Part shown: in pieces, positions 1,635-54,821 of the stretch
How positions within the stretch are numbered: position 1 is the first letter of the stretch
Layout: every line of letters begins with the position of its first letter
Origin: a virus
DNA length: 64,000 bases
Reading direction: 5' to 3' (one strand)
Virus record (IMG/VR): IMGVR_UViG_3300030060_007423
Location: 1-64,000 of that record
Notes under the pieces: model-generated
Told to the model about the DNA's origin: nothing
Databases searched by the model: none
What the model saw: the letters and a program-made list of their open reading frames with translations, nothing else
Translations under genes and position numbers: made by a program

Positions 1635-4600
1635 ATGCCCACAAATCTATCAGGCAGTAATATATCAGATACTTTTCAACAAGTTCTTCACACAACCGGT
1701 GATGGAAACATGTATGATGGTACGGGTTCTATTTTTATACCCCTATCAGCTAGTCATGAAATCACAACAGAACTTTCTTCATCACATGCATCTGTAGCAG
1801 ACTCACTAACACCAGGTGTTGACATAGATGCGAGAAATATAACAGCATCAGGAAATATAAGTTCTAGTGGAAATTTAATATTAGATAAAATTACAGGTCA
1901 AATAACAGCTTCTAAAATGATTATTGGGTCTAGTAATGAATTTGTAGTAACTGAAACTCATATCAAAACAAATACAGCAAATATAACTCACAATGATGGA
2001 AATGATGGTGTATTTTGGAAGTTCAAAGGTGAAAATGATGATAATCTTTTATACTTAAATGCACCTGAAGATAATGTTAAAATTGGTGGTGTACCGGGTT
2101 TAGGAGATAAAAAATTAACAGTAATTGGTGATATAAGTGCAAGTGGTGAAGTATATGCCAATAAATTTGTTGTTCAGAACACCCCAGCTTTAGGTAATTC
2201 TGGAGCTGAATTAAGACTTGGGGTTAATTCTAATTGGACAGCAACTCGTATAGGTAATTCTGGAGGTAGTACTATACTTGCTAGTCCAATAACAGCCTCA
2301 GGTGATATAAGTTCAAGTGGAAACATTTTTACATCTGGAAGTATTGGTGTAGGAACTGATAGTCCAGATGAAGCAATACATATCAAAGGACCAACACCTA
2401 GACTTAAAATAGAAGCCGCTGCAAACGGTACACCAAAAATAGAATTCAAAAACAATCAATCACCTACATTTGCTATTAAAAATGTTTTTGGAGATGGAGG
2501 ACTTCAAATTGCATCCGAAGGAGGTCCTGCAAAATCATTTGTAACTATTGGTGCAAATGATGGTGACATTATTGAATTAAGTGGTAGTGTAAATGTAACT
2601 GGTCCTGCAGGTACTATAACTGCATCAGGTGATATAAGTTCAAGTGACGGAATATATGCAAAAAATTATTATATAAAAGATGGGGAAGTTATTGCAGCCG
2701 CTGCAGGTACAACATTTTTTGGAAGATTGGGTCAAAAGACAACCATTACTGGTTCAAGAATTCTACTACAATCTAATGTAACAGCTTCAGGTGGTATACA
2801 AGCCAGCCATCTTCATGTTGGTGTAGGTGGAGTTCCAATTACTGATAGAATAGCACACTTAAGTAATTCAGGCAGTAGTACATACCTAAGACTATCAACA
2901 GTTGGAAATCACAACCAACTTATTGAATTCCAAAACCTACAAGAAGAACCAGATTTCACAATAGGAACTTATCATTCTGATGGTGGTTTTCAAGTCAGGT
3001 CCGATAACAAAACATTTTTAATAGTTGGTGCAGATGATGGTGACGAAATTTTTGCAAGTGGTAGTCTTAGAGTATCAGGTGACATAAGTGGTAGTGCAAC
3101 ATCAACAGGTTCATTTCAAGAAATTCGTACTAACTTTTTACGGGATATAGATGACCCAACAACTGGTATTGACTTTACATACGGTGACCAAGTACATCAT
3201 CGTGTTAACAATACTTCATACATAAGATTACGGGATACTTCTCAGGACATAGTAAGAATAAATGAAGGCTTTGCTGATATAGATTTTGAAGTACATGGTG
3301 ATAATCATTTATTATTAAAAACTGATGCAGCTGAAGATTATGTAGAAGTATCAGGTAGTTTAAGAGTTACAGGACAGGGTTATATAACTGCATCAGATAT
3401 AAGTGCAAGTAGTGAGATTATTGCGGAGAATTTGAGAGTGCCTGGAACACTTGCCTCAACTGGTATTTTTATAGATGCATTATCACCTGGTAAACCAACA
3501 ATAAATGCAAATAGTGGTAGGTTAATAATAGGTGCAGCACATTCATCATATACTGGTCAAGGTGTAACAATATTTTCATCAGGTTCAGGTGAAGGGCTAA
3601 AAATGGATGCGCTCGGAAACATAACAGCATCTGGTGATATAAGTGCAAGTGGTGAAATTTTTACAACTGACTTTTATGCACCTATTGGTATAAATGATGG
3701 GTATCATATTGGTGTAGGAGCAGCTGCAGGAAAACCTATACTTTCAATGGCAAACTCAGGCTCAGCCCTCAGAATAGGAGCAGATCACTCTACATACCTA
3801 GCAAGTGGTGTCAATATTTTTACTACTGGTTCCGATGGTTCAAAAGGATTATTTTTAGATAGTGGTGGTAACATAACATCATCAGGTAATATATCTGCAT
3901 CTCAAGGATTTTTTGATTATTTATACACTGGTGTTGAAATAGGTGAAAATGAAGTAACAGGTACCAATGAAGGTGCACTATTAAAAATTCATGCTTCAAG
4001 TTTTGCTTATAGTTCACAAATACAGTTCAAAGGTGCAGACACAGTAAGGTGGTCACTTGGTTTTCCATCCATAGCAGCTGGTGACAATGATTTTGTAATT
4101 CAACAGGGTTCAAATACAGCACTTAATGCATCAGGTAATTTTGTAATAAAGAGTGGTAGTAGCAATGTTGGTATTAATTATAAAGCTGGTGACGATATAC
4201 CTGCAAAATTATCAGTGGATGGGAACATATATACTACAGGCAATATAACAGCTTCAGGTAATATATATGTAGGTGATTATCTTTATTCTAATGGAAATTT
4301 TATTTTAGGTGAAATTGGTGGTCTTCAAAAGTTTGGTAATACTAATTTAACAAACGACTATTTAGGAAAATCACATATCTTCTCTACTGCTATAACAGCA
4401 TCCGGAGATATAAGTGCAAGTGGTATTGTAACTGTCAATCAATTAAGAGTTGATGGAAGAATATATCCAAACTATCCATTATCATCAGATCACTTTATAA
4501 GAAATACATCAGCTAATAACCCAATAGTAAGTGCAGTAGGTGGATTTCATACAGATGGAAATGTAACAGCTTCAGGTGATATAAGTGCAAGTGGGACAGT

Positions 4601-7670: not shown

Positions 7671-7698
7671 TTAATAAAGTATGATTAAGGAAAACAAT

Positions 7699-10128
7699 AT
7701 GCAATTAGGAAACTGGCTAGCTGAACAAATACTTTTAGAGCAATCTAATATAAAAACCGTTGTTGCAATTTACCCAGGTAGATTTCAACCAATGGGAAAA
7801 CATCATGCACAAACCTACCGTGCACTAACATCAAAGTTTGATGATGTTTGGGTTGCAACAAGTGGAAAGGTTAGTCTTCCAAAGTCACCGTTTTCTTTTG
7901 GCGAAAAAAAGAAGATAATAAACTCTCATGGAATATCAAAGGTAAAACAGGTCAAAAATCCATACCAAGCTACAGAGATATTAAATAAGTATGACCCAGA
8001 AACAACAGCTGCCGTATTCATTGTTGGTAAGAAAGATGCAAGCAGATTAGGGGGCAAGTTTTTTAGGCCCTGGAAGGGTAAAGCACAAATCGGATATAAG
8101 GATGGCGCATATACATATATAGCACCACATGTGTCCCTAAGTGTTCCAGGCTATGGAGAAATGAGTGGAACTGCAATACGCAAAGCTCTAGGCGATACAT
8201 CACTTGAAAAGAAAGATAAAGTAAAAGTATTTAAGGGAATATTTGGCCACACAAAAAATTATGATTTCATTGTAAAGAAACTTGAAAAGTTAAATGAGAT
8301 TGTTGAAGGCTTTGTAAATAGTTTTGATTTTAGTAAATTTATTAATGAAACATCAGCAACACCAAATAATAATTCAGATGTAGATGATGGACCAAGATAT
8401 TTTTATGGCTATCAAAAAGCGTATAGGGAATCCACAGCTGAGATTGCAAAGAGCTTAGGTATGAGTGTATTAAATTATATTGTTGGTGATGAAGAGTTTT
8501 TTCAACATGACACTGTATACCCTAATGGTCCAACTGGTGCCGTTTCATATTTTCCAACAGGTGTACCCGGCCAACAAACTGGTACAAATGTTTACAAAGA
8601 CTCAGTTGGAAAAGTTGCATATAAAAAATACATAGAACACATTTCAGCTGTTGCACAACAAGTTGGTTATAAGTTTATTGATTTTATTAGTTTAGATAAA
8701 TTTATAGATGATAGCCCAGACGAACCAAAAAACATTACCAAATATGATTTAACAGAAAACATAAATTTACCAATAGAGGTTGGTGATACTGTTATGATGG
8801 GAAAGTTCAAAAATAAAAAAGTTGTTGTTAAAGATATATCTTGGAATGATAAGGGTGACTTATTAATAAATGGAAGACCTGCATTAAAAATTAGAATACC
8901 TAAAAAACAAAATATATTTAATGAAGGTTTAATTTTAGAAGGCGGTGCATACGGTCATATGTCTCACCCATTTGATGATAAAGGATTAACATTTGGTGAT
9001 TTCAAAAAAATAATTGAACTAGGACTTCAAGGAAGTATAGATTTAGAACAATCAGCAACTGAAAAAACAGATGGTCAAAATTTATTTATTAGTTGGAATA
9101 ATAAATTAGTTGCTGCAAGAAATACTGGTGATATAAAGCGTGGTGGAAAAGATTCTAAAGCAATTGCAAAAAAGTTTGCTGGCAGAGGAAATATAGAAAA
9201 AGCATTTAATTATGCAATGAGAGATTTATCAAAGGCAATTGGTGGATTGAGTGATAAACAAAAAAAGAAAATATTTGATGATGGAAACAACTGGGTGAAT
9301 ATGGAAATAATGTACCCGGCATCCTCAAATGTAATTAATTATGATGCACCATATTTACAATTTCACAATGTATTAAAATATAAAAATGGAAGTGCAGTTG
9401 GTGCCGTACATGATGGTGCAAGAATATTGGCTGGAATGGTTAAGCAAACAAATCAAAATGTACAAAAAAGTTTTAGTGTTATTGGACCTAAAATATTAAA
9501 GGTTAAACCTCATCAAGATTTTGGTGCAAAAAAATCATACTTTATTGGAAAGCTTAATAAATTGATGTCAAAATATAATATGGGAAATAGTAATACATTT
9601 GGCGAATATCATCAGGCATGGTGGGAAGATTATGTTGAAAAGAATTTAGGTGCAGTTGACAATACAATAAAGATGGGCTTGGTTAAACGCTGGGCATTTT
9701 TTGATAAATCATTTAGGTTAAATTCAAAAACAATTCCAGATAAAGACATCTTGACAAAAGTTATTGAAATTGACAAACAAAAACATGTAGACCAAGTAAA
9801 GAAAAATATGTTTCCATTTGAAACTTTGTTTTTTGAATTAGGTGCCGAGGTACTTAAAAATGTAGAAGGCTTTCTAGCCGGAAATCCAGAAAAAGCAGTT
9901 CAAAATGTTAGAAGACAAGTTGCAAAAGCAATTGGTGATGTTAGAAAAGGCGGTGACCTAAAAAAATTAAATAGATTAACACAACAACTTGAAAAGATAA
10001 AGGCTATTGGTGGATTCAAAACAATCATACCAAGTGAAGGTTTAGTTTTTATTTATAAAGGAAAAACATATAAGTTAACAGGAAGCTTTGGACCAGTAAA
10101 TCAAATCACTGGATTGATGAGCTTTTAG
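7699..10128 (+). CDS. Fusion: cytidylyltransferase-like + middle domain + nucleic-acid-ligase-like domain
   Basis: Start at 7699 is preferred over ATG 7681 because AAGGA ends 7 bases before it. Residues ~20-200 form an NMNAT/cytidylyltransferase-like Rossmann domain with PGRFQPMGKHH (the HxGH site is degenerate: only the last His fits) and a good SGTAIR motif. An unassigned middle (~230-420) follows. The C-terminal ~400 residues look like the covalent nucleotidyltransferase (ATP-dependent ligase) fold: KTDG near 456-459, a charged strand WVNMEIMYP as motif III, YLQFHNVL, and a late KILKVK as motif V. Adenylyl transfer linked to RNA/DNA end sealing or NAD metabolism is possible. The N-terminus MQLGNWLAEQILLE ends in an LxE site like those cut by T4-type prohead protease, so the protein may travel in the capsid. 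Confidence 0.7.
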   Translation: MQLGNWLAEQILLEQSNIKTVVAIYPGRFQPMGKHHAQTYRALTSKFDDVWVATSGKVSLPKSPFSFGEKKKIINSHGISKVKQVKNPYQATEILNKYDPETTAAVFIVGKKDASRLGGKFFRPWKGKAQIGYKDGAYTYIAPHVSLSVPGYGEMSGTAIRKALGDTSLEKKDKVKVFKGIFGHTKNYDFIVKKLEKLNEIVEGFVNSFDFSKFINETSATPNNNSDVDDGPRYFYGYQKAYRESTAEIAKSLGMSVLNYIVGDEEFFQHDTVYPNGPTGAVSYFPTGVPGQQTGTNVYKDSVGKVAYKKYIEHISAVAQQVGYKFIDFISLDKFIDDSPDEPKNITKYDLTENINLPIEVGDTVMMGKFKNKKVVVKDISWNDKGDLLINGRPALKIRIPKKQNIFNEGLILEGGAYGHMSHPFDDKGLTFGDFKKIIELGLQGSIDLEQSATEKTDGQNLFISWNNKLVAARNTGDIKRGGKDSKAIAKKFAGRGNIEKAFNYAMRDLSKAIGGLSDKQKKKIFDDGNNWVNMEIMYPASSNVINYDAPYLQFHNVLKYKNGSAVGAVHDGARILAGMVKQTNQNVQKSFSVIGPKILKVKPHQDFGAKKSYFIGKLNKLMSKYNMGNSNTFGEYHQAWWEDYVEKNLGAVDNTIKMGLVKRWAFFDKSFRLNSKTIPDKDILTKVIEIDKQKHVDQVKKNMFPFETLFFELGAEVLKNVEGFLAGNPEKAVQNVRRQVAKAIGDVRKGGDLKKLNRLTQQLEKIKAIGGFKTIIPSEGLVFIYKGKTYKLTGSFGPVNQITGLMSF

Positions 10129-43269: not shown

Positions 43270-43303
43270 TAATTTTTTATTGTCAATTATTTTAGTTATA
43301 TTA
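43268..43303 (+). promoter_or_regulatory. 36-bp early-type promoter element before polymerase-like gene
   Basis: AATAATTTTTTATTGTC, 12 AT-rich bases and TATATTA, ending 14 bases before the ATG at 43318. There is no SD. Confidence 0.6.
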
Positions 43304-47568: not shown

Positions 47569-47599
47569 TTTTTTATTGTCAAATAAATTTGTTATATTA
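47564..47599 (+). promoter_or_regulatory. 36-bp early-type promoter element before Hc1-like gene and gp32
   Basis: AATAATTTTTTATTGTC, 12 bases, TATATTA. It begins inside the stop region of the membrane protein gene and probably drives the Hc1-like, gp32 and uvsX genes. Confidence 0.6.
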
Positions 47600-48608: not shown

Positions 48609-49736
48609 ATGGCAAAGAAAGTAAATACAAAGAGAGATGATTTAGCAAATTTGTTGGCAGATAGTCTTAACAAAAAGTTCAAGGACTATAAAGTTGCTTA
48701 CTTTCTTGACGGTACAGAAGAAACACCAACTGACTTAACAGAGTGGATTAGTACTGGGTCATCTATGCTTGACTTGGCAATTTCTAACAGAAAAAATGGT
48801 GGTATACCAGTTGGTAGAATTACTGAAATAACTGGTCTTGAAGGTAGTGGAAAGAGTCTTATGGCTGCTCACCTACTTGCAAATACACAAAAACAAGGTG
48901 GACTTGCAGTTTACATTGATACAGAAAATGCAATGAATGAAGAATTTGCTACGGCAATTGGAATTGATGTTGCAAATATGTTATATATTCAATTGGAAAC
49001 TGTTGAGGAAATTTTTGAGGTTATGGAAAACATCATCACTAAAGTTAGAGAAAGCGATAAAGATAGGCTTGTTACAATAGTTGTAGATTCATTGGCTGGC
49101 TCAACAACCAAAGTTGAGAGTGAGGCTGATTATAGCAAAGATGGCTGGGCAACCAGTAAGGCAATTATTTTATCAAAGGCTATGCGTAAGATTACTCAAA
49201 TGATAGGAAGGCAGAGAATTTGTCTCGTATTTACAAACCAACTTAGACAAAAGATGGGGGTTATGTTTGGTGATCCTTGGACTACATCTGGAGGTAAGGC
49301 AGTAGCTTTCCATTCCAGTTGTAGACTAAGGCTAAAACCTATGGGACAAATAAAAGCCAGAGTTGATGGTCAAGAACAAGTTATGGGTATTAAAACCGTT
49401 GCACAAGTTGTAAAAAATAGAATGGGCCCACCATTAAGAAAGTCACAATTTGAAATTTATTTTGAAAGTGGTATTGATGATTTTGGTGGATGGTTACATG
49501 TTCTAAAAGATTACAAACTTGTTAAGCAAGGTGGTAGTTGGTACACATATACTGACCAAAATGGTAAGGACCATAAATTTATGTCAAAGGATTGGAATTC
49601 ATTATTGGAAAACAATGAAGAACTAAGAACAGAAATTTATGATAAAATTGCAGATACAATTATTATGAATTACAAAGTTGATAATTTTGGAATTGATGAT
49701 GTTGAAATCAGCAGTGAACCAGTACCAGAAGGATAA
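48609..49736 (+). CDS. uvsX: RecA/UvsX recombinase
   Basis: The 375-residue product has the RecA-fold ATPase: Walker A GLEGSGKS (about residues 76-83), AVYIDTENAMNEEF, Walker B TIVVDSLAGSTTK and the L2-type segment VFTNQLRQKMGVMFGDPWTT with GGKAVAFHSSCRLRL. This is the strand-exchange protein of T4-type recombination-dependent replication. The C-terminus is acidic (DDVEISSEPVPEG). It begins ten bases after gp32. The gene is followed by 368 bases without a protein gene, holding a structured RNA. Confidence 0.95.
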   Translation: MAKKVNTKRDDLANLLADSLNKKFKDYKVAYFLDGTEETPTDLTEWISTGSSMLDLAISNRKNGGIPVGRITEITGLEGSGKSLMAAHLLANTQKQGGLAVYIDTENAMNEEFATAIGIDVANMLYIQLETVEEIFEVMENIITKVRESDKDRLVTIVVDSLAGSTTKVESEADYSKDGWATSKAIILSKAMRKITQMIGRQRICLVFTNQLRQKMGVMFGDPWTTSGGKAVAFHSSCRLRLKPMGQIKARVDGQEQVMGIKTVAQVVKNRMGPPLRKSQFEIYFESGIDDFGGWLHVLKDYKLVKQGGSWYTYTDQNGKDHKFMSKDWNSLLENNEELRTEIYDKIADTIIMNYKVDNFGIDDVEISSEPVPEG

Positions 49737-49754
49737 TAGGTTATGAATAAGTAA

Positions 49755-50039
49755 TTGGTGGCTAACCCCACCTTTTACTTCGTCTTACACAACAACAGCC
49801 TTCTCGTGGCGTAGGATGTTAAGGTCAAAAATCCGCACTTATCGAATGATTATTTGACCGACCAATGTTGTTAACGAGTGATTTGTCTTTGGCCAAGTGA
49901 CCCCAAAGCAAATTTATGATTAAGGTATATGTGGCTGATACCAATTGTTCTCTAATCGTCACTGTTGGAGATACTATAAACATATACTATGTCAGCTTGG
50001 AAGCCCTGGATTTGTTTTATCAATGAAGGGGCTTTTTTT
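49755..50039 (+). ncRNA. Structured non-coding RNA candidate (~285 nt) between uvsX and RNase H
   Basis: No ORF covers this stretch and its base composition is visibly less AT-rich than that of other gaps. Paired elements read directly: GGTGG 49757 with CCACC 49768; ACTTCGT 49777 with ACGAGT 49874 (one bulge), continuing as AACAACA 49791 with TGTTGTT 49866; GGTCAAA 49823 with TTTGACC 49853; ATTTG/CTTTGG 49881-49892 with CCAAAG/CAAAT 49903-49913 (11 pairs, one bulge). The loop of that hairpin holds AGTGAC (49896), complementary to GTCACT (49958). GTATATG 49925 pairs CATATAC 49981 while GCTGA 49934 pairs TCAGC 49992, an H-type pseudoknot. A terminator ends it. No promoter is obvious; it may be cut from the uvsX transcript. 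Confidence 0.7.
50001..50039 (+). terminator. Terminator at the 3' end of the RNA candidate
   Basis: AAGCCC pairs with GGGCTT across a 22-base loop and the stem runs into seven T. The loop is long for an intrinsic terminator. Confidence 0.65.
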
Positions 50040-50044
50040 ACCAA

Positions 50045-50080
50045 AAATATTTTTTTATCCCAAATAAAATAGTTATATTA
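50045..50080 (+). promoter_or_regulatory. 36-bp early-type promoter element before RNase H / helicase
   Basis: A divergent copy: AAATATTTTTTTATCCC then 12 bases and TATATTA, 24 bases before the ATG at 50105. Spacing is preserved; the ATTGTC part is ATCCC. Confidence 0.5.
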
Positions 50081-50104
50081 TACTAAACAAAAAGATAATA
50101 GCAT

Positions 50105-51154
50105 ATGTCAAAAAGCAGATACTTTTCAATACTTGAAACACTACAGGAGAATACTGATACTCCTTCTAACCCCAATGATAGAATATTAATCGTTGACGGG
50201 CTAAATACATTTATCAGAGCATTTGCAGCAAACCCAGTAACAAATGAAGATGGAATACATGTTGGTGGAATAACTGGTACACTAATGTCAATTGGATACG
50301 CAATAAAACAAATTAAACCAACACGTGTTATTATTTGTTTTGATGGAAAAGGTGGTAGCCAAAGAAGAAGAAAAATATTTCCAGATTATAAAGCAAATCG
50401 TAGAGTAAAATCTAGGCTTACACGGCATGGAAATCATAATACAATGGAAGATGAATCATTGTCTATGAAACAACAATTAATGAGGTGTGCTCAATATTTA
50501 CAACAATTACCAGTTACTGTTTTAAGTGTTGAAAATATTGAAGCAGATGATAGTATGGCATATATTTCTCAACAGGTATATCCTGATAGTCAAAAGTTTA
50601 TTATGTCAACAGATAGGGATTTTTTACAATTAGTATCTGACAAAGTACATGTATGGTCACCAACAAAAAAGAAGTTTTATTTTAAGGAAACAATAATGGA
50701 AGAGTATGGTATACCATCTCATAACTTTTTATTATATAGAACAATTGAAGGTGATGCATCTGATAATATCCCAGGAATTAGAGGTGCAGGTAGAAAAACC
50801 ATTGCAAATAGAATTCCTATAATAACAGAGAACAGGACAGTAACTATTGATGAAATAATTGATTTTACAGCACAAAATTCAAAATATAAAATATTAAAAA
50901 CAATTTCTGAATCAAAAGAATTGTTAGATATGAATTATAAACTAATGCAATTAGATGAGGTAGATATATCAGGTTCAGCAAAGACAAAGATAATGAATAC
51001 AGTAAGGTCACCTATCCAACGATTAGTAAAATATGAATTTCAAAAAATGATTTTAGAAGACAAAATCAATGGTTCAATTAAAAACCCAGACTTATGGTTA
51101 AAGCAAGTATTTTTACCATTAGACTCTTATGCAGGAATGACAAATGACAAGTAG
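50105..51154 (+). CDS. rnh: RNase H-type 5'-3' exonuclease (T4 Rnh / flap endonuclease family)
   Basis: The 349-residue product has the metal-binding acids of the FEN family: ILIVDGLNTFIRAF at the start, VIICFDGKGGSQRRRKIFPD then YKANRR, EADDSMAYIS, MSTDRDFLQLV, and the helix-hairpin-helix segment EGDASDNIPGIRGAGRKT. T4 RNase H removes RNA primers from lagging-strand fragments and is stimulated by gp32. The first ~25 residues are an extra polar lead. It overlaps the helicase gene by 11 bases. There is no clear SD. Confidence 0.92.
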   Translation: MSKSRYFSILETLQENTDTPSNPNDRILIVDGLNTFIRAFAANPVTNEDGIHVGGITGTLMSIGYAIKQIKPTRVIICFDGKGGSQRRRKIFPDYKANRRVKSRLTRHGNHNTMEDESLSMKQQLMRCAQYLQQLPVTVLSVENIEADDSMAYISQQVYPDSQKFIMSTDRDFLQLVSDKVHVWSPTKKKFYFKETIMEEYGIPSHNFLLYRTIEGDASDNIPGIRGAGRKTIANRIPIITENRTVTIDEIIDFTAQNSKYKILKTISESKELLDMNYKLMQLDEVDISGSAKTKIMNTVRSPIQRLVKYEFQKMILEDKINGSIKNPDLWLKQVFLPLDSYAGMTNDK

Positions 51155-54459: not shown

Positions 54460-54637
54460 ACCTGATTGGATAGAAGAGTTATACCTTAAAGAGTATATTA
54501 ACAAACAATCAACCAAAGATTATTATTGGGAAAATGGCAAAATGGTAATGACAGAAAATTACCATGTAAACCGAGGTTACTGTTGTAAAAACGGATGTAA
54601 GCATTGCCCTTATGAAAACAGTAAATCAACAGGCTAA
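54446..54637 (+). CDS. DUF5522-type small Cys-rich protein, GTG start
   Basis: A GTG at 54446 has AGGAGG five bases upstream and starts a 63-residue product overlapping nrdJ by 14 bases. It reads KPDWIEELYLKEYI, then YYWENGKMVMTENYHVNRGY followed by CCKNGCKHCPY, the DUF5522 signature of four conserved Cys and His that probably bind metal. Members are small proteins of unknown function. Upstream ATGs in frame lie within nrdJ and lack SD sites. Coupled translation with nrdJ is likely. Confidence 0.75.
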   Translation: MRLHKPDWIEELYLKEYINKQSTKDYYWENGKMVMTENYHVNRGYCCKNGCKHCPYENSKSTG

Positions 54638-54821
54638 AATTTTACAAGATGAGATTAAAGCCAAAAAGTTAGAATTGTCTAAATTACAAGATGATTGTAA
54701 ACATGAAAAAAAACAAATAAAAATGGATGAAACAAACTCCGCAATGTGGGAATGTGAAAATTGTTCAAGACGACTAAGATACCCTACACCTGCAGAGATG
54801 GATATATGGATTAGCAAGTAA
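54612..54821 (+). CDS. Coiled-coil protein with zinc-ribbon-like end (69 aa)
   Basis: The first ~30 residues are a coiled coil (QQAKILQDEIKAKKLELSKL). CKHEKKQ, then about 15 residues, then WECENCSRRLRYPTPAEM contain C-x-H and C-x-x-C that could bind zinc. It overlaps the preceding gene by 26 bases in another frame and its last base is the first base of the next ATG. Not a named family. Possibly nucleic-acid or protein binding. Confidence 0.6.
   Translation: MKTVNQQAKILQDEIKAKKLELSKLQDDCKHEKKQIKMDETNSAMWECENCSRRLRYPTPAEMDIWISK

Follow-up and report, generated by a model that had tools for sequence, protein, structure and literature searches.

The source phage is uncultured and T4-like. In the 64-kb stretch of its DNA that was analysed (the window), a gap of 368 nt (49737-50104) lies between uvsX and a T4 rnh-type exonuclease gene (Table 1). 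An earlier note on this DNA had called it the only gap above 300 bases. It is the longest non-coding stretch of the window, but a second such gap exists at 54460-54820 if ORFs of at least 90 aa are considered, and this one holds a 69-aa ORF. As the note had also stated, the region is less AT-rich than other gaps, with a GC content of 0.396 (49755-50039), while six other gaps have 0.26-0.32 and the whole window has 0.331. The folding energy of the gap region is ordinary (z -1.2), and the fold of the antisense strand is unremarkable (z -0.29). The Rfam search that had been proposed gave no match in the window at the gathering cut-offs. Low-score matches to snR41, snR39, and isrN were judged to be chance.

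The terminator listed in the note is present, and a promoter-like element follows it before rnh. This motif, TTTTTATTGTCAAnnAnnTTAGTTATATTA, recurs at window positions 43274-43303, 47570-47599, and 50051-50080 and at genome positions 65242, 79018, and 85397. The copies precede genes, among them rnh and the SSB gene, and three copies in the window compare with 0.02 expected. Possibly, the element is a phage-specific middle or early promoter.

Table 1 Features of the uvsX/rnh junction (window coordinates)
Feature	Position	Strand	Remarks
uvsX (RecA-like recombinase), upstream gene	48609-49736	+	Pfam RecA, 8.6e-59
Hairpin AAGTAA..GGTGG/CCACC..TTACTT	49749-49780	+	Fold -13.5 kcal/mol; one unpaired base before predicted cut
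A, predicted cleavage site	49781^49782	+	5' of G1
Module A, predicted HDV-like self-cleaving ribozyme	49782-49872	+	Pair counts; unique descriptor match; sub-threshold RF02682; covariance model R1, 76 bits
A, P1 5' strand GTCTTAC	49782-49788	+	Pairs with 49811-49817 GTAGGAT; G1.U at cut
A, P2 5' strand AACAAC	49791-49796	+	Pairs with 49867-49872 GTTGTT; pseudoknot over P1
A, P3 hairpin GCC-TTCTCGT-GGC	49798-49810 (49798-800/49808-10)	+	3 bp; loop L3 49801-49807
A, P4 hairpin	49823-49859 (49823-29/49853-59 + 49831-33/49848-50)	+	Pair counts
A, J4/2 CCAAT	49862-49866	+	Predicted catalytic C49862
Module B, new structured RNA	49875-49999	+	Covariance model R2, 50.3 bits
B, closing helix P0	49875-77/49997-99	+	Weak in window copy
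B, P1 hairpin	49881-49913 (49881-85, 49887-92/49903-08, 49909-13)	+	Loop holds kissing strand AGTGAC 49896-49901
B, P3 helix GTATATG/CATATAC	49925-49987 (49925-31/49981-87)	+	Encloses hairpin P4
B, pseudoknot strand GCTGATA	49934-49940	+	Pairs with 49990-49996; 7 bp in window
B, P4 hairpin	49947-52/49968-74	+	Pair counts
B, kissing strand GTCACT	49958-49963	+	In P4 loop
Intrinsic terminator 3' of module B	50001-50039	+	Hairpin -11.7 kcal/mol, then T-run
Promoter-like element before rnh	50051-50080	+	Same motif elsewhere in genome (see text)
T4 rnh-type 5'-3' exonuclease, downstream gene	50105-51154	+	Pfam 5_3_exonuc_N, 2.5e-33

Relatives were collected by a UvsX search, which led to 80 viral loci whose uvsX/rnh gaps were compared. 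For wider sampling, we used pattern scans of viral contigs and two covariance models (R1 for module A, R2 for module B). Across phages, the gap is modular and carries A only, B only, A-B, B-A, or, in many cases, only a terminator; the order A-B occurs in the window and its nearest relatives. Both modules show pair changes on both sides in the comparison of relatives, and the structured RNA with pseudoknot and loop-loop contact that had been postulated is thereby backed by compensatory changes. Because of this comparative evidence, we accept the structure as real despite the ordinary folding energy. It is not a single RNA, however. The gap carries two separate RNAs, a predicted HDV-like ribozyme (A) and a knotted RNA outside known families (B), a make-up that the first reading had missed.

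One integrated regulatory RNA over the whole gap, with host or phage targets, would fit the adjoining positions of A and B in the window, where both would share one transcript after cleavage. We consider it highly improbable, as A stands alone after uvsX in L029, L037, L041, and L067 and occurs in other gene contexts, B stands alone in many phages, and the order is reversed in L042, L100, and L114.

Structure of module A

Judged by its structure, module A is almost certainly an HDV-like ribozyme, with predicted catalysis. Its strands follow in the order P1, P2, P3, P3', P1', P4, P4', P2', i.e., as the nested double pseudoknot which defines the HDV-like class (PMC10879173). Over 25 pairs in 28 sequences, 99.1% of the cells are standard pairs, and 15 of the 25 pairs change on both sides, with such changes in each of the five helices. 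This pairing level was reached by 0/500 shuffles, and slid registers were 35-49% paired.

P1, which had not been noticed before, forms 7/7 pairs in all 28 sequences, and four of these pairs show changes on both sides. Its first base is G throughout (28/28), and the first pair is G.U in 25 sequences and G-C in three. A G.U pair is also found at the cut of HDV. P2 is 96.3% paired across the 28 sequences, likewise with both-sided changes, and was also picked up by the descriptor (see below). It is the supported part of a long-range stem that had been read as 49777-49797 with 49866-49879; the rest of that stem lies outside the supported pairing. P3, also missed at first reading, is paired in 28/28 with an exchange of A-U to G-C, and its loop L3 reads UUCNCGU in all aligned copies, which is of the class type U-Y-Y-N-C-G. 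For P1.1, one C-G pair is possible (C of L3 with G49818); it shows no covariation because its bases are invariant. P4 contains the hairpin that had been listed at 49823-29/49853-59. It is present in all 28 aligned copies and 100% paired, with seven pairs changed on both sides.

The joining segment J4/2 occurs as CCAA, CUAA, CCGA, or CUGA. The additional terminator that the window retains downstream of A would suit a ribozyme-shaped fold that has lost catalysis and is only a structured mRNA element. Against this, both the predicted catalytic C and the A located three positions further on are invariant in 28/28 sequences though the bases between them vary, and every helix is kept by compensation. 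Hence, a non-catalytic A is very unlikely.

A descriptor following the rules of the HDV-like class gave a single match in the 64-kb window, at 49782, and none in 30 shuffled windows. When the C of J4/2 (CNRA) was exchanged for A, G, or U, only the C version matched in the window; these controls are informative there, whereas relatives mostly re-match the same elements one register off, and the controls were not used for them. The first base of the Rfam family RF02682 (F. prausnitzii HDV) aligns at G1 of A in the window, L172, L173, L176, and L182. The scores of 15.5-26.3 bits (15.5 for the window copy) are below the cut-off of 44 at all loci, which is not a structural criterion for membership in the HDV-like class, and this class is diverse in sequence (PMC10879173). 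A second R1 match at 9998-10061 (minus strand, 22 bits) overlaps the coding ORF 7681-10128 and shows no full core by eye; it was regarded as chance.

Structure and distribution of module B

Module B is very probably a real and new RNA. The listed hairpin at 49881-49913, the GTATATG/CATATAC helix, and the GCTGA/TCAGC pseudoknot were all found again, and the closing helix P0 is an addition to them. P0 and P3 were each supported with 0/2000 permutations over 14 lineages, and both-sided changes affect 76 cells of P3 and P4 together (0/500 shuffles). The H-type pseudoknot is weaker than the other elements, as across lineages only GCU/AGC is general, some lineages have 3 bp, and 35/2000 permutations reached its level.

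The loop-loop contact AGTGAC/GTCACT, formerly put forward as possible, is present in the window and is full (6/6 pairs) in 13 of 14 lineages; the group of L011-L020 and relatives keeps 4/6. Altogether, 82 of 84 pairs form over the 14 lineages vs 65.5 expected, with 0/20000 permutations in the position-matched test, which is the valid one; an unconstrained search for kissing strands was weakly significant (63/2000). The contact exists in the versions AGUGAC/GUCACU, GGUGAC/GUCACC, GAUGGC/GUCAUC, UAUAGC/GCUAUA, and UAUAGU/ACUAUA. The last one is the compensated contact of the most divergent copy (L226, 420-640), which also has a long P0 and P3.

With Rfam 15, no match at gathering was found for B in the window, and none was credible in eight B loci (E <= 1) or the window gap (E <= 10). 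Group I intron, hammerhead, and hairpin ribozyme were considered by eye and dropped as identities. When A and B were compared by Blast with 50,697 phage records, no relatives were found; the one weak match, of B to MT835970, fails the covariance model. In bacterial and archaeal genomes, the pattern of A had no match, and 20 matches to the pattern of B included none that was credible by covariance model (best L238, 23.3 bits, E 0.036).

B was found in roughly 40 contigs and is single-copy in each of the 11 records having it. Wherever the neighbourhood was read, it lies between uvsX and rnh, directly after the uvsX stop codon except in the window, L001, and L003, where A intervenes. On its 3' side follows a terminator or A.

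In many lineages, P0 ends a few bases before the intrinsic terminator, as would be expected if B were a riboswitch-like, transcription-attenuating cis-element controlling rnh, and in some (L011-L020) rnh follows directly, with no space for a promoter. We consider such control unlikely because the window has a promoter-like element after the terminator, ribozyme A instead of a scored terminator follows B in L042, L100, and L114, terminator sequences vary freely, and an antiterminator was not seen by inspection. In the window, terminator and promoter-like element separate B from rnh, and the predicted cut of A would separate it from the uvsX mRNA, which favours a free-standing RNA over a cis-switch. 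B marks where transcripts of the uvsX region end on the 3' side, and it most likely acts as a free-standing stable RNA or an end-protecting fold, a reading that these observations support weakly.

Distribution of module A and 3'-end formation behind uvsX

A was found in more than 40 contigs. It is single-copy in each of 18 searched records having it, at differing sites, and always intergenic in the same sense as the surrounding genes. Among these sites are some with a DUF4494 or DUF6445 gene upstream and HSP20 or S21 genes downstream. In L186, a manA RNA candidate (1787-1961, minus strand, 29.6 bits, E 0.001, below the cut-off) was seen near tRNAs and ribozyme A. As the flanking genes vary, other roles of A than the one proposed here are possible.

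On the upstream side of the cut, structures are frequent. Counted over kin loci, which are not independent of each other, 21 of 30 distinct A sites have a hairpin (at least -5 kcal/mol) whose end is no more than 6 nt away from the predicted cut; among random positions, 36% do. The other nine sites are without a clear upstream hairpin (55-nt fold), and four of these have the closing helix of B instead. In L042, L100, L114, and L167, this helix ends 3-5 bases before the predicted cut. In the window, the hairpin at 49749-49780 is probably the 3' end of the uvsX mRNA after cleavage.

Terminators point in the same direction. Again over related loci, an intrinsic terminator was scored in 23 of 33 uvsX/rnh gaps without A and in none of the A-only gaps, after two flagged tRNAs had been removed as false positives. 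Both occur together only in the window and L001. Thus, A and an intrinsic terminator hardly ever occur together at this junction, while the rule of A instead of a terminator fails for the window's own clade because both are present there. On balance, we favour the simplest reading, in which the upstream transcript receives its 3' end from A.

Alternatively, A might serve mainly to give the RNA downstream of it a 5' end (5'-OH; ribozyme-capped mRNA or leader of a tRNA). This is a live alternative because genes or tRNAs often closely follow A. Gene starts are often about 20 nt downstream, and a tRNA gene begins about 2-4 nt after A in L029 (1918-1991) and L042 (3250-3323) and another directly after A in the L092 contig. 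Of the gaps with the order B-A, two are followed by a tRNA. Since hairpins and the closing helix of B lie immediately upstream of the cut, and in the window B and a terminator rather than a gene follow A, a main role at the 5' end is the less probable one.

For 3'-end formation, the following course is proposed. A would fold during transcription and cut at 49781^49782, one base past the hairpin behind uvsX, leaving a uvsX mRNA that is protected by a hairpin at its 3' end. With such an end, A would replace the intrinsic terminator found at this junction in related phages. The other product, A plus B, would be an RNA of about 258 nt that is freed at the intrinsic terminator, whereupon rnh would be transcribed separately, from its own promoter-like element. 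B may then persist as a free-standing stable RNA or act as an end-protecting fold, rather than as an rnh switch. As a whole, this explanation by two RNAs, with A cutting behind uvsX, release of the A-B RNA, restart at rnh, and B as a stable RNA, is likely, and self-cleavage with 3'-end formation fits A better than the "regulatory or host-directed RNA" of the earlier note.

A further generalization is tentative, and we would not expect it to hold in full. B may be an independent phage RNA that receives its 3' end from either an intrinsic terminator or an HDV-like ribozyme, the two being interchangeable, and it may form a new functional class that acts in trans during replication; phage HDV-like ribozymes might in general produce the 3' ends of RNAs and mRNAs, beyond those of tRNAs.

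Comparison with known systems

B resembles phi29 pRNA and kissing-loop riboswitches, which combine a closing helix with loop-loop pairing; compared via Rfam alone, no sequence or Rfam relation to them was found. B adds a covariation-supported RNA outside known families.

Like the HDV, CPEB3, and F. prausnitzii (RF02682) ribozymes with P4, A has the nested double pseudoknot, the start at G1, and the conserved bases in L3 and J4/2. It differs from these in that it scores below the Rfam cut-off and is located in T4-like phages between replication genes, beside upstream hairpins or RNA B. To our knowledge, no biological role is known for most HDV-like ribozymes. The operon junction at which A is found here is fixed and well understood, and close relatives have a terminator there, so the idea of a ribozyme as 3'-end maker is directly testable.

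Theta ribozymes are minimal HDV-like ribozymes of Caudoviricetes, mostly of gut phages, without P4, and their cut is often, typically but not universally, at the 3' end of a tRNA (PMC10879173). This arrangement was also seen in L208 (5583-5700) and L211 (2626-2743), where a P4-less HDV-like candidate directly follows a tRNA 3' end; both are 93-kb contigs with a cluster of many tRNAs together with ROOL RNA and DUF3800-XI RNA. A shares with theta ribozymes the HDV-like fold, the occurrence in phages, and a structured RNA on one side of the cut. Unlike them, it has P4 (28/28 aligned copies), and its cut at uvsX/rnh follows mRNA hairpins or B, with nearby tRNAs downstream of A. A tRNA scan of the 64-kb window found none, and it is the uvsX 3' hairpin that precedes the predicted cut. 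Phage HDV-like ribozymes, so far P4-less and mostly of gut phages, now include forms that have P4 and are located at mRNA junctions.
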